Program-made: the position numbers and the translations under genes
NCBI GenBank assembly: GCA_029570375.1
Contig: JAKPXB010000003.1
Coordinates: 1-50,544 of the forward strand
Length of the DNA stretch: 50,544 nt
Direction: 5' to 3'
Origin: Bacillota bacterium
Lineage (GTDB): Bacteria > Bacillota > Clostridia > Saccharofermentanales > DTU023
The notes under the pieces: model-generated
Database searches by the model: none
What the model saw: only the letters and a program-made list of their open reading frames with translations
What the model was told of the DNA's origin: nothing
In this document: in pieces, positions 14,831-20,796 of the stretch
Layout: the number at the start of each line of letters is the position of its first letter
Position numbering within the stretch: position 1 is the first letter of the stretch

Positions 14831-16570
14831 TTATTCGAAGCGTCCAAACTGCGCGTCGTTGTTGCCGCTGGTGCTTGACCACATCTCAAGCATGTTGATC
14901 GGGTCGTTGAAGTCAGCTACCCAGCCGTGTCTCGCGACGTCGAAGTTACCGGCTTTACGTTCTGCCAGAGTGGTATCCCAGTCCATCAGGCTGATGGTCA
15001 TCTTGATCCCGAGTTCGGCGAAGTCGTCGTAAATAATCTCGGCAATCTTGCTGTGCCCTGACGTCTTGTTAGTGATGTAATTCACGTGCAGTGGCGTCTC
15101 AGCGGAAAGCTTCCCGTCTTCACCGAACTTGTAGCCGGCTTTTGTCAGCAGTTCGCGCGCCCTGTCGAGATCTTTCGCGGGGCTGAAGTAACCGGCTGTC
15201 GCCTCATCGGGATATTTGTAAGCGCCGCTGTTCACCTTGAATTCTTTACCCTGGCCATCATACATTCCCGGCGGGATAAAGGCGTTGGCGAGCTTCTGCC
15301 CCGTCTGTCCGACGGTATCGACAATGTACTGGCGGTCGATCGCGGCGGCGAGGCCTTTGCGCATATTCGCGGCTTCTTCCACTGTCTTGCCCGCGAACAT
15401 GTCGGATTTGACGTTAAAGCATACGAAGTAGGTGCCGAGCTGGTCGATCACATGGAACTCCGGATTCTTTGTCTCAAGCAATACTTTCACTTCGTCGGTC
15501 GGCACGCTGTCGATGAAATCGAGGTTGCCCGCTTTGTAGGCGGAGTAGATCGTCGTGTCATCGTCTGACAGCATAAATGCCAGTTTCTTGATTTTGACAT
15601 TTTCGGCGCGGTGGAAGTGCTCATTTCTCTCAAACGTAATACTCTGCTTGTGTGTCCACCCTGTGTTCTTGAACGGACCGTTCGAGACGTAATTGCCGTT
15701 CTCTGTCCACGCCGCGGGGTTCTTGATGTTCCCGCTTTCGTCGAGATATCCGGGGGCGGATTCGACGGCGTCTTTCTTGACAGGGAAGAATGTCGGGAAC
15801 GCACAGAGATCCAGGAAGTAGGAAGTGACGCTCTTCAGTTTAACGGTGAAAGTTTTACCGTCTTCAGAGGCTTTCGCTTCGAGTTTTTCGACGTCGCCAT
15901 TCTCATCTTCCGGCCATCCCTCGATGCAGTCGAGCATGTAGCGGTAGTCCGCCCCGATCTTCGGGTTGGCGGCGCGTTTCCACGAATACTCAAAGTCTTT
16001 TGCGTTCAGTTCGGAGCCATCCGACCATTTCAGACCGTCGCGGAGTGTGAACACGTATGTTTTGCCGTCTTCGGAAATGTCAACTTTCTCGGCGCAGTCG
16101 GGAACAATTTCAAGGTTCTCATTATAGGTATAAAGACCGGAGAATGAGTTTACCGCCATCACAGCGCCGTCAACGGCTGAGTTCAGGGCGGGGTCAACAT
16201 AGTCAGGCTCAGAGGCAATACAGAGATCAATGGTGTCTTTGTCGCCGTTCGTAGCCTTCTCAAAATATTTGTACCCGTAGAGCGTCGCGTAGTAGCCTTT
16301 GAGGGCTTCTTTCGCCATATACTCATCGTTGTAGTAATAGATGGGGCAGATCGCGCCTGTGTCCATCAGCTTGTCTTCCGCCGCGTGCATCATCTTCATG
16401 CGCGCTTCCATGTCCTGTGTTGTCTTGATGTCTTTGATCAGCTTGTCATACTCGTCCCACGGGAAAGCGGCGACTTTGCCTTTTTCCTCCCCGCCTTCTT
16501 TCTTAGGGCCGCAGGCGACAAGACTGATGACCATGAGGAGCATCAAGATAATTGCCAGTGCTTTCTTCAT
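14831..16570 (-). CDS. oppA: oligopeptide-binding lipoprotein OppA, apparently circularly permuted
   Basis: The 579-residue protein is the peptide-binding component of the Opp importer (family 5 binding proteins). The signal peptide has lipobox LVAC (Cys20). Residues 37-106 correspond to what is normally the C-terminal end of this family: DEYDKLIKDIKTTQDMEARMK, HAAEDKLMDTGAICPIYYYND, KGYYATLYGYKYF. Only then comes the usual N-terminal start (LCIASEPDYVDPALNS at about 116-131, GLYTYNENLEIVPDCAEK, LRDGLKWSDGSELNAKDFEYSWKR). The protein stops after DVARHGWVADFNDPINMLEMW and SGNNDAQFGRFE, where ordinary members continue into the EYD segment. The reading frame is continuous and the RBS AGGAGG is strong. 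It is the last gene of the opp operon, 154 bases after oppF. Confidence 0.88.
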   Translation of the reverse strand: MKKALAIILMLLMVISLVACGPKKEGGEEKGKVAAFPWDEYDKLIKDIKTTQDMEARMKMMHAAEDKLMDTGAICPIYYYNDEYMAKEALKGYYATLYGYKYFEKATNGDKDTIDLCIASEPDYVDPALNSAVDGAVMAVNSFSGLYTYNENLEIVPDCAEKVDISEDGKTYVFTLRDGLKWSDGSELNAKDFEYSWKRAANPKIGADYRYMLDCIEGWPEDENGDVEKLEAKASEDGKTFTVKLKSVTSYFLDLCAFPTFFPVKKDAVESAPGYLDESGNIKNPAAWTENGNYVSNGPFKNTGWTHKQSITFERNEHFHRAENVKIKKLAFMLSDDDTTIYSAYKAGNLDFIDSVPTDEVKVLLETKNPEFHVIDQLGTYFVCFNVKSDMFAGKTVEEAANMRKGLAAAIDRQYIVDTVGQTGQKLANAFIPPGMYDGQGKEFKVNSGAYKYPDEATAGYFSPAKDLDRARELLTKAGYKFGEDGKLSAETPLHVNYITNKTSGHSKIAEIIYDDFAELGIKMTISLMDWDTTLAERKAGNFDVARHGWVADFNDPINMLEMWSSTSGNNDAQFGRFE

Positions 16571-16724
16571 ATTATCCTCCTAAGGTGAGCTCCTTTAACA
16601 GGAAGCTCGCTTGACCGGAACGCTATTCTATTTGCGAACCGGGATGTCACCGATGGAGCCGATGGACCATAAGGCGACGGGCCGACAACTATCAGTCCCG
16701 CGATACAATCGCGTTCACGCATTT

Positions 16725-17759
16725 CTATCGATTCCAGCAGGCAACAAAGTGCTCATGGCCTCGATCTGTAAAAGGCGGCTCTTCCAGCGAACACTTCTCG
16801 GTCGCGTACGGGCAGCGCGTATGAAACGCACATCCGCTCGGCACGTGGAGCGGGCTGGGAACATCGCCTTCCAACACAATTCGATGGCTCTCGCGCGCGG
16901 TGATCGGATCAGGGATCGGCACGGCGGAGAACAGGGATTCCGTATAAGGATGGATGGGGTGATCGTTGATCTCATTTGTCTCGGCGAGTTCAACGATCTT
17001 CCCGAGGTACATGACAGCGATGCGGTCGCTCATGTAGGTCACAATCAGAATGTCGTGGGCGATAAACAGGTAACTCAGATTGAGTTCATCCTGCAGATCT
17101 TTAAACATGTTGAGGATCTGCGCCTGAATGGAGACATCCAGAGCCGAGACCGACTCGTCGCAGACGATAAATTTCGGGTTGATCGCGAGCGCGCGCGCAA
17201 TCCCGATGCGCTGGCGCTGACCGCCGGAGAATTCGTGAGAGTAACGCGTGGCGTGTTCCTGGTTCAGTCCTACGAGATGCATCAGCTCGTAGACGCGTTC
17301 ACGCCTCTCGCTCTTATCCTTGTACATTTTGTGGACATCGAGCGGTTCACCGATAATATCTTCAACCGTCATCCGCGGATTGAGTGAGGAGTACGGATCC
17401 TGAAAGACCATCTGCATATTGCGCCGGAGCGTGCGCACATTCTTTTCGGTAATCCTCTCCCCGTCAAAAAACACCTCGCCGGAAGTTGGCGGGTACAGCC
17501 ACATGAGCGTCCGCCCGACCGTCGTTTTCCCGCAGCCTGACTCTCCTACCAGTCCCAGCGTCTCTTTGTGCCTGATAAAGAATGACACATCGTCGACAGC
17601 CTTCAGCGGCAGTTCTTTGAAAAAACCTGTTTTAACCGAGAAATGCTTGCTGAGATGGTGGACTTCGAGAATATTTCCGCCGTCCGGCTCGTATTCATTC
17701 CAATCGGTGTCTGACAGCTGTCCCTGGCCGAACACTGATTTCGTTTGAGTGTTACTCAT
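16725..17759 (-). CDS. oppF: oligopeptide ABC transporter ATPase OppF
   Basis: The 344-residue ATPase of the Opp importer has Walker A GESGCGKTT, Q-loop MVFQDPYSSLNPRMTV, signature FSGGQRQRIGIARAL, Walker B FIVCDESVSALDVS and switch AHDILIV. Replacement of the usual glutamate region by CDESVSALD is common in OppF. The C-terminal oligopeptide-transporter tail carries the conserved cysteines CAFHTRCPYATEKC and a final HFVACW, which in related OppD/DppD proteins bind an iron-sulfur cluster. The N-terminal 25 residues are an extension. The start codon overlaps the oppD stop by 4 bases (ATGA). Confidence 0.94.
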   Translation of the reverse strand: MSNTQTKSVFGQGQLSDTDWNEYEPDGGNILEVHHLSKHFSVKTGFFKELPLKAVDDVSFFIRHKETLGLVGESGCGKTTVGRTLMWLYPPTSGEVFFDGERITEKNVRTLRRNMQMVFQDPYSSLNPRMTVEDIIGEPLDVHKMYKDKSERRERVYELMHLVGLNQEHATRYSHEFSGGQRQRIGIARALAINPKFIVCDESVSALDVSIQAQILNMFKDLQDELNLSYLFIAHDILIVTYMSDRIAVMYLGKIVELAETNEINDHPIHPYTESLFSAVPIPDPITARESHRIVLEGDVPSPLHVPSGCAFHTRCPYATEKCSLEEPPFTDRGHEHFVACWNR

Positions 17760-18790
17760 CTGGTTTCACCTCCACGGTCTTCCACGGCGGCTCCGGCAGG
17801 CGCCCCTTCTTCAGTCAGTATCTTCCGGATATTCACCCAGCACGACGCGTAATGCGTATCCGATATCGCGATCTCTTCGGGATGTTCTTCAAGACAGATC
17901 TTCATACATTCTTTACACCTGGGGGCGAACGCACATCCCGGCGGAAGGTTCAAAAGATCGATCGGAGTCCCCGCGATCGGGATAAGGCGCTCGTCAGTCT
18001 TCCGATCCTTCGGAATGGACTGCAGAAGATTGCGCGTGTACTCATGGGACGGTGAATAGAAAATATCATCGGTTGTACCGCGTTCGCAGACGGATCCGGC
18101 ATACATCACGATGATCTCGTCGCACATGTCGGCGATCACACCGAGGTCGTGCGTGATAATAATGACGGCCATACCGATTTTCGCTTTGAGCTCCGCGATC
18201 AATTCCAGAATTTGCGCCTGAATGGTGACATCAAGGGCGGTTGTCGGTTCATCCGCTATCAGGATATCCGGTTCGCAGGCGAGCGCCATCGCGATCATTA
18301 CACGCTGGCGCATACCGCCTGACAGCTCATGAGGGTACTGTCGGACGCGTCGTTCCGGATCGTTGATACCCACGAGATGGATCAGTTCAATTGTCCGCCT
18401 GCGGATGTCGGCGCCCCGGCGGTCCGTGTGGAGCCTGATCGCCTCGTCGATCTGGTGGCCGATCGAGAACACGGGGTTGAGAGAGGTCATCGGATCCTGG
18501 AAGATGATACTGACGCTTGAACCGCGGAATTCCCGCATCTGCTTGCGCGAGTACTCCAGGAGATTGTCACCCTTGAAAAGAATCTCGCCCCCGATAATCC
18601 TGCCAGGGAATTGCAGGATCTGCATAATCGAATAAGCGGTTACACTCTTGCCGCTGCCCGATTCCCCCACGATACCGAGTACTTTGCCTTTCTCAAGTTC
18701 GAAAGAAACGCCGTTGACGGCCTTGACTTCGCCCGCGTCCGTCATAAAGGATGTTCTTAAATCTTTAACTTGCAAAATCGTCTCTGACAT
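17756..18790 (-). CDS. oppD: oligopeptide ABC transporter ATPase OppD
   Basis: The 344-residue ATPase has Walker [10 protein letters not shown] near residues 40-48, Q-loop [16 protein letters not shown], signature [15 protein letters not shown], Walker [15 protein letters not shown] and switch ITHDLGV. The C-terminal tail has the Cys-rich oligopeptide-transporter motif [14 protein letters not shown]...HYASCW. It pairs with OppF to form the heterodimeric ATPase of the importer. It starts 2 bases after the oppC stop and overlaps oppF by 4 bases, so the four genes are translationally linked. Confidence 0.94.
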
Positions 18791-18792
18791 GT

Positions 18793-19869
18793 CTATTTCC
18801 TCAACTTGGGATCAAACGCATCACGGAGACCGTCTCCGATCAGGTTAAGCGTCAAAACAATCAGTGAAATCATGACAGCGGGGAAAATCAATTTGAACGG
18901 GTAAATCTGGATGCCCTCTCTCGCTTCACTCGCGAGCGAACCGAGCGAAGGCATGGGAACCGCGACACCTAATCCCAGAAAGCTCAGAAAACTTTCGGTA
19001 AAAATGGCGGAAGGGATCTGGAGTGCGGTCGAAATAATAATCACGCTGATACAATTCGGCAGGATATGTTTCCGGATGACCCGCGATTTCGACGAACCCA
19101 CGGCATTCGCCGCAAGCACGAATTCATTCTCTTTTATCGACAGGATCTGGCCTCGGATAAGCCTCGCCATGCTCACCCAGTACAAAAGCCCGAAGACAAT
19201 AAACATACTGAGCATGCCGGTTCCCATCCGCGCGAAGATCGTCCCCTGAATCTGTTTGCCGATTGTCTCCTTCAGCACAAACGACAGGAGGATGATCATC
19301 AGCGTATCCGGCAATGAATAGATGACATCGACAATCCTCATCATCACCAGGTCAACCTTGCCGCCGAGAAAACCCGAAACCGAACCGTATAACAGTCCGA
19401 TCACCAGCACAATCAGACTGGCAAAAAAACCGACAATCAATGAGATGCGCGTCCCCACCACCACGCGGATGAAATAATCGCGGCCGAGCTGGTCGGTCCC
19501 CATAATATGAGGAAACAGCTTGCCGCCGTTATCGATATACTCCTGTTCTTTTTCCGACCATTTCATCGGATACAGGTTCGAAACAGTCTGATCCCGCTGG
19601 CCGTTGATGCGGATGGTCTCTCCATACTTGTAGGGAATCACGGCGGGAAGGATCACAATCGCGATGATAATCGCAAACAACGCGATGAGGCTCACCATAG
19701 CCATCCGGTTCTTCCTGAAATTTCTGAAGCCATCCCGCCAGAAGCTGCTCGGTTCGCGCATCACATCCAGATTCCGTTTCTCTTCGTCTGACGCAAGCGT
19801 AAACTTCGACAGATCGATCTGAAGACTCAGGGGATGCTTCTTAAACTCCTTTGAATGATCATCTTTCAT
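18793..19869 (-). CDS. oppC: oligopeptide ABC transporter permease OppC
   Basis: The 358-residue permease has a long hydrophilic N-terminus (about 55 residues) ahead of helix 1 (MAMVSLIALFAIIIAIVI), as in OppC. An extracytoplasmic segment of about 70 residues ends in PHIMGTDQLGRDYF, the OppC/DppC hallmark. The EAA loop docking to the ATPases is FVLAANAVGSSKSRVIRKHILPN. Further helices and the C-terminal LIGDGLRDAFDPKLRK motif are all present, so the gene is intact. It lies 15 bases after oppB on the minus strand. Confidence 0.93.
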   Translation of the reverse strand: MKDDHSKEFKKHPLSLQIDLSKFTLASDEEKRNLDVMREPSSFWRDGFRNFRKNRMAMVSLIALFAIIIAIVILPAVIPYKYGETIRINGQRDQTVSNLYPMKWSEKEQEYIDNGGKLFPHIMGTDQLGRDYFIRVVVGTRISLIVGFFASLIVLVIGLLYGSVSGFLGGKVDLVMMRIVDVIYSLPDTLMIILLSFVLKETIGKQIQGTIFARMGTGMLSMFIVFGLLYWVSMARLIRGQILSIKENEFVLAANAVGSSKSRVIRKHILPNCISVIIISTALQIPSAIFTESFLSFLGLGVAVPMPSLGSLASEAREGIQIYPFKLIFPAVMISLIVLTLNLIGDGLRDAFDPKLRK

Positions 19870-19884
19870 ATCAATATGCCTGCC

Positions 19885-20796
19885 CTACTCAAATTTAATT
19901 CTCGGATCGATTACCTTGTAGATGAGGTCGCTGACCAGCGTCATAAACACCATGAAAATAGCGAGAAAAATCGTCGTTCCCATGATCATCGTATAATCGC
20001 GGTTCATAATGCTCTTAACAAACTCCAGTCCAAGTCCCGGCAGTGTAAACACCGTCTCCACCACCATGCTCCCTGTCAGCGTATAAGCGATCATCGGCCC
20101 GAGATAGGTAACAACCGGAAGAACCGCGTTCCTAAGCGCATGCTTGGCGACGACGGCGACGGGATGCACGCCTTTCGAACGAGCTGTCCGGATATAATCG
20201 TCAGCCAGCACGTCCAGCATGCTCGATTTTGTCAGGCGTGTAATGTAAGCGATCGGATATAAGGACATGGACAGAACCGGCAGAAAGTAGCTCGGGTTGC
20301 CCTGCCGGTAGACAGGGAACCAGCCCAGCTGCTGCGCGAATATCAGGAGAAGGAGTGTCGCCATGACAAAACCGGGGACCGACTGGAACAGCGTCGTGAA
20401 AAAGATAATCACCCGATCGATCAGCTTATTCCTCCTCAGCGCGGCGATCATTCCGAGCGTGAGACCCACAACAAGCGAGACAAGCACTGAATAGCCGCCA
20501 ACTTTGGCCGAAACAGCAAAGGAATCGCTGATTGTACGGGAAATTTCCCGCCCATTGCGCATCGAAATACCAAGGTCTCCCTGGAAGAGCTTTCCTATAT
20601 AGGAGAAAAACTGCTGTCCAAGGGGTCTATGTAGGTCGTACCGTTCCAGGAGTGCCTTGATCACCGCCGGATCAGACGCTTTTTCCTTATCAAAAGGACC
20701 GCCCTTGATCGCATGCATAGCGAAAAACGTGATCGCGATGACAATAAAAACTGTTACGATCGCGAGTAAAACACGTTTGACAATATACTGCCACAT
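19885..20796 (-). CDS. oppB: oligopeptide ABC transporter permease OppB
   Basis: The 303-residue permease has six predicted helices and begins MWQYIVKRVLLAIVTVFIVI, a standard OppB/DppB start. GDLGISMRNGREISRTI and the docking loop DDYIRTARSKGVHPVAVVAKHALRN are canonical, as is the C-terminal ending VIDPRIKFE. It is first in the minus-strand opp operon; the leader of about 200 bases holds a good promoter at 21005-21033. RBS GAGAGGTG lies just upstream. Confidence 0.93.
   Translation of the reverse strand: MWQYIVKRVLLAIVTVFIVIAITFFAMHAIKGGPFDKEKASDPAVIKALLERYDLHRPLGQQFFSYIGKLFQGDLGISMRNGREISRTISDSFAVSAKVGGYSVLVSLVVGLTLGMIAALRRNKLIDRVIIFFTTLFQSVPGFVMATLLLLIFAQQLGWFPVYRQGNPSYFLPVLSMSLYPIAYITRLTKSSMLDVLADDYIRTARSKGVHPVAVVAKHALRNAVLPVVTYLGPMIAYTLTGSMVVETVFTLPGLGLEFVKSIMNRDYTMIMGTTIFLAIFMVFMTLVSDLIYKVIDPRIKFE

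Follow-up and report, generated by a model that had tools for sequence, protein, structure and literature searches.

The whole stretch of DNA analysed here (50,544 nucleotides, hereafter the window) carries, at positions 14,831–16,570 on the minus strand, a gene for an OppA-like family-5 solute-binding lipoprotein of 579 residues in which the C-terminal segment precedes the rest of the chain. The gene very probably encodes a naturally circularly permuted OppA, the peptide receptor of the adjacent OppBCDF importer, with the ordinary three-domain cluster C fold; peptide binding and delivery are inferred, in the absence of biochemistry. This arrangement, which hundreds of relatives share, is called type A below.

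All features are on the minus strand. The ATG start codon lies 5 nucleotides downstream of a Shine-Dalgarno sequence, AGGAGG (16,576–16,581). Residues 1–20 (16,511–16,570) form a lipoprotein signal peptide with the lipobox LVAC, whose cysteine at position +1, Cys20, fulfils the requirement for a bacterial lipoprotein. A linker of residues 21–36 (16,463–16,510), where the confidence of the structural model is low, connects Cys20 with the new N-terminus. Residues 37–106 (16,253–16,462) are the moved segment, assigned by homology to the canonical C-terminus. It corresponds to about 444–517 of Salmonella OppA, which comprises the end of domain III, the hinge strand, and the final part of domain I. 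A short joint of residues 107–112 (16,235–16,252) connects the old C-terminus to the old N-terminus, and the body, residues 113–579 (14,834–16,234), begins at the canonical N-terminus, includes most of domain III, and terminates at the cut with ..SGNNDAQFGRFE. The gene is encoded with oppB (19,885–20,796) and oppC (18,793–19,869) for the permeases and oppD (17,756–18,790) and oppF (16,725–17,759) for the ATPases, as the receptor of an Opp importer should be.

The crossed homology is observed directly in alignments with solved structures. In a phmmer search of the PDB with the native order, the protein matches Bacillus subtilis OppA (8are) in two pieces that are crossed: residues 109–573 align with 17–450 (211 bits) and residues 39–106 with 455–522 (20 bits). 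The second piece is also found in DppE (8ay0, at 451–512, i-E 3e-7), and residues 31–93 align with 438–500 of MppA. When the body and residues 37–106 were joined computationally in this order, the rotated query gave one continuous alignment to each top solved chain. With 8are, rotated residues 3–541 align with 19–522 in a single alignment of 242.5 bits, as compared with 230.2 bits for the two native pieces. The break in the alignment falls at 443/444 of Salmonella OppA. An unrelated or chance N-terminal segment is ruled out by the i-E value of the DppE match together with the rotated alignment over the whole chain. The canonical chain order, with a domain I strand first and the C-terminal segment last, is not met, since the C-terminal segment occupies residues 37–106; the protein therefore belongs to a permuted subclass and is not a canonical OppA.

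The position of the Pfam match should be noted. SBP_bac_5 (PF00496, 'Middle') covers residues 154–571 with 273.1 bits against a cut-off of 32.4 (profile positions 1–367 of 368). This match ends before the moved segment, so that the permutation is invisible to domain annotation. No dedicated NCBIfam model matches the protein above its cut-off. A profile spanning the joint (A1, the C-segment plus the N-terminal part), which detects any permuted family-5 protein, matches PDB chains only on one side of the joint, and thus no solved permuted relative was found there.

The structure was predicted by AlphaFold2 from 54 permuted sequences without templates. The model has a pLDDT of 91.3 and a pTM of 0.87, with pLDDT values of 94–96 in the moved segment. 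It matches OppA with Z scores of 29–30 across 425–430 residues, which satisfies the assignment to the class II cluster C fold, and a Foldseek search with the model retrieved the same family. In an order-preserving structure alignment, residues 105–579 of the model correspond to OppA 1–445 (Z = 29), and both reciprocal ends are left unmatched. Exactly two unmatched reciprocal ends are expected of a circular permutation. The OppA-like packing of the moved segment is a prediction that rests on the model confidence and these reciprocal gaps, not on a direct superposition. Trp550 and Asp553 (14,912–14,923), which correspond to the residues that hold the N-terminus of the peptide in this family, Trp416 and Asp419 of OppA, are invariant in all 54 aligned permuted sequences. 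For the Ami receptors, the equivalents of this tryptophan and aspartate have been shown to hold the N-terminus of the peptide (PMC11192437). In nearly all permuted relatives measured, the joint between the two profile matches is 6–10 residues long. A joint this short is consistent with the location of both the old C- and N-termini in domain I (PMC6305025), the source also of the OppA domain limits used here, in which domain III (270–486) constitutes lobe 2.

These results bear out what the initial annotation had proposed from the letters alone, namely that residues 37–106 are the C-terminus of the family, that roughly the last 70 residues have moved to the front, and that the frame is intact with a well-placed signal peptide and ribosome-binding site. 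The segment is homologous to the C-terminal part of OppA, DppE, and MppA, the rotated alignment spans the chain with one break, and the predicted structure is that of a permuted chain. The permutation is thus real and in frame, and its conservation is seen in the relatives. The suggestion that similar proteins might exist unremarked in clostridial databases also proved right, as homologues of the same order were found.

When a single genome from each species was scanned at the protein level, 325 related stretches were obtained, and the C-terminal segment is in front in all of the 80 best loci. The same order is found in an isolate, Proteiniclasticum aestuarii SCR006 (contig NZ_JAFNJU010000008.1, locus L108), and in a single-contig genome (G988). 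The permuted form with intact reading frames extends across dozens of species. Where sufficient flanking sequence is available, most loci show the arrangement of the window, with the permuted gene downstream of oppB-oppC-oppD-oppF as the last of the series. Among the 37 relatives from the family to which the window belongs, the permuted form is present in about 11, either complete or as a remnant, and a canonical homologue with 42–45% identity in seven; these frequencies are rough, being drawn from genome samples. One relative of the same family (G036) carries a broken permuted copy (L157, contig C11), and a genome of the same genus (G030) carries only a fragment of the permuted gene (L030, contig C86).

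The window comes from an incomplete genome in 51 contigs, of which it forms one, and in principle a misjoin could have moved the 3' end of oppA to the front of the gene. Such an assembly or binning artefact has practically no chance of being the explanation: the frame, signal peptide, and ribosome-binding site are intact, and an assembly join is ruled out because the order recurs in many independent assemblies, including those of the 80 best loci, the isolate, and the single-contig genome. The broken copy in G036 and the fragment in G030 would also fit a protein that has lost its transport function and become a sensor or is decaying. This is very improbable, given the intact oppBCDF next door, the invariant ligand residues, and the reading frames conserved across dozens of species.

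The initial annotation could not show that the chain has been cut at two other points in relatives, that permutation originated repeatedly, or that genes of canonical order occur inside the permuted clade. Profile A1, together with a rotated profile, revealed the two further cut sites. The type B cut lies at about 352–358 of OppA, between the preceding helix and the following strand. It is found in L135 and L140 (family f49), in L145 (family f4), and in a clade of L159, L162, L164–L169, and L185. The type C cut lies at about 278–285, near the start of domain III, in L146 (G343, on a 3.1 Mb contig) and L147 (G100), in both of which the gene is the last one after oppCDF. The same operon slot is used by canonical, type B (L135 and L140), and type C forms. 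An initial broad tree with long, distant outgroups was replaced by trimmed trees that were built carefully. In the latter, type B is placed on three separate branches, kept apart by starred supports, and type C on one. Since all solved family-5 chains matched by the joint profile are canonical, that order is treated as the ancestral one. Type A, the three type B branches, and type C then amount to at least five origins. All three cut sites are in domain III, which could be a coincidence, given that this domain accounts for about 42% of the chain and that the events number only about five.

The order has also changed within the type A clade. Eight canonical-order proteins (L118, L119, L199, L202, L203, L204, L206, and L208) of a Lachnospiraceae-like family, f27, are nested in the clade, and they occupy the same operon slot as the permuted forms. 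A tree of the bodies only, with the columns of the C-segment and the cut excluded, needs at least four changes of order. By the AU test, one clade for all permuted sequences is rejected (p = 7.6e-5), and so is one clade for the nested canonical ones (p = 3e-5). At the old cut, the nested canonical proteins read, for example, GNNDMQLGK-DSTSSAPDW-KEYD, in which the type A C-terminus is followed by a linker like that at the type A N-terminus, whereas ordinary canonical proteins have GNNDAQWSNAEYD at this site. In the sister canonical clade (L017–L023 and L136–L144), most members have a conserved insertion of about 28 residues exactly at the type A cut, with a loop that reads GNNDVQFGKG...GTWAETYD. 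This loop suggests that the permissive character of the site probably predates the cut.

Two loci, L086 (4551–8471) and L093 (4452–8438), each have two permuted OppA domains fused in one open reading frame of about 1300 residues. The linkers in these fusions are rich in Ala, Val, and Glu, and the fused genes are positioned after oppBCDF. The middle of the fused frame, consisting of body 1, the linker, and C-segment 2, is a canonical-order protein. Tandem fusions of this kind are plausible intermediates for a change either way, and the direction of each switch is not readable from the counts alone. A search next to type A genes revealed no leftover of a tandem duplicate, the extra hits there being the main genes of other loci or fragments; the duplication route is consequently only inferred. 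The switches might instead have come about without re-circularisation of any one gene, if canonical and permuted copies that were present together recombined or one replaced the other. The shared operon slot and the interleaved phylogeny would fit such exchange, and the body-only trees trace nothing except the body, which could itself be swapped. We nevertheless consider exchange unlikely, as in the nested canonical proteins a C-terminus of type A (GNNDMQLGK) is joined to a linker resembling the type A N-terminal one (SSAPDW..YD), which ordinary canonical proteins lack, and fused tandem copies do exist.

A mechanism may be proposed on the basis of these observations. In a resident operon gene, the two original termini, each located in domain I, would have been linked by the short joint, and the chain would have been reopened in a domain III loop at OppA 443/444. 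In one Lachnospiraceae-like lineage the order would then have switched more than once, plausibly via copies arranged in tandem or fused, as in L086 and L093. The new termini are in domain III, which would put the N-terminal anchor on lobe 2; the lipid anchor at Cys20 is thus inferred to be attached to lobe 2 rather than lobe 1. The permuted receptor is presumed to close around bound peptides in the usual way and to pass them to OppBC, so that the permutation would alter the geometry of the tether and not the binding. Most likely, the permuted proteins are working OppBCDF receptors with switched tethering, binding and uptake being inferences. The anchored side could matter, because models of the Ami receptors place the two lobes on different permease subunits (PMC11192437).

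The lipoboxes should be noted in this context. By a simple scan, which gave a few false negatives, about 27 of the 94 type A proteins have no lipobox, and several type B proteins also lack one. L014, L015, L041, L042, L087, L164, L167, and others have a signal peptide and no lipobox (e.g. ALASSAPDW), which is odd for permuted solute-binding proteins if the hosts are monoderm. The type A proteins without a lipobox may be secreted, or the signal peptide itself may retain them. Since they account for about a quarter of type A, a purely lipid-anchor reading is weakened.

The same absence would also fit a permutation that is real but neutral, that is, if the fold were tolerant and the old termini adjacent, so that the order drifts without effect on tethering or transport. 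Neutral drift is a serious possibility, only a little short of an even chance. Within a single clade, both orders alternate at one and the same operon position, and the cuts are in loops, one of which is enlarged to about 28 residues in the sister clade. On the other hand, separate events occurred at three sites that are all in domain III, type B recut the same loop on three branches, and the permuted form has become fixed in dozens of species. These points do not exclude neutrality.

The window protein shares whole-chain homology, the predicted three-domain fold, the ligand residues, and the oppBCDF partners with the family-5 cluster C proteins OppA, DppE, and MppA (8are and 1ola), and differs from them in having the last approximately 70 residues first and the new termini in domain III. 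AliC and the other Ami oligopeptide receptors (PMC11192437) are also of cluster C, with domains I and II as lobe 1 and domain III as lobe 2. AliC, however, has the canonical order, and its rearrangement is a domain-swapped dimer between chains. The only natural permuted solute-binding protein of an importer that we found in the open-access literature is TpMglB-2 (Tp0684) of Treponema pallidum, described as 'Type Ic / Cluster Bc'. It is membrane-tethered, retains ligand binding, and has relatives in Gram-positives; its authors propose anchoring as a possible reason for the permutation (PMC4990184). TpMglB-2 is, like the window protein, a naturally permuted and tethered solute-binding protein, but it has a sugar-binding cluster B fold, its N-terminal strands are moved to the C-terminus, the permuted part is poorly conserved in sequence, and a single arrangement is reported. 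The window protein, which matches family-5 cluster C and has a moved C-terminal segment, does not belong to Type Ic / Cluster Bc. No open-access paper that treats circular permutation and OppA together was found (subscription papers and preprints were outside the scope). The permuted cluster C subclass thus appears to be new, no report on family 5 having been found, and the repeated origins are the surprising part.

Natural circular permutation is usually regarded as rare and one-off. Here, one of the best-studied receptor families was cut independently several times, and it includes a large, conserved clade of permuted proteins in which canonical members occupying the same operon slot are nested. 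Such permutations are hidden by domain annotation, as the Pfam model stops just short of the moved segment, and the natural permutation sites of OppA are usable for sensor design. A wider generalisation, which we regard as doubtful, is that the order is switchable in the peptide-binding proteins of Bacillota, with at least five permutations at three domain III sites, at least two to three further switches in one lineage through tandem fusions, and selection on which lobe is anchored. Because the nested canonical genes share the operon slot with permuted forms, cause and effect can be compared among close relatives, and the family lends itself to testing, on naturally occurring proteins, whether anchoring is what drives such topologies, as was suggested for TpMglB-2.
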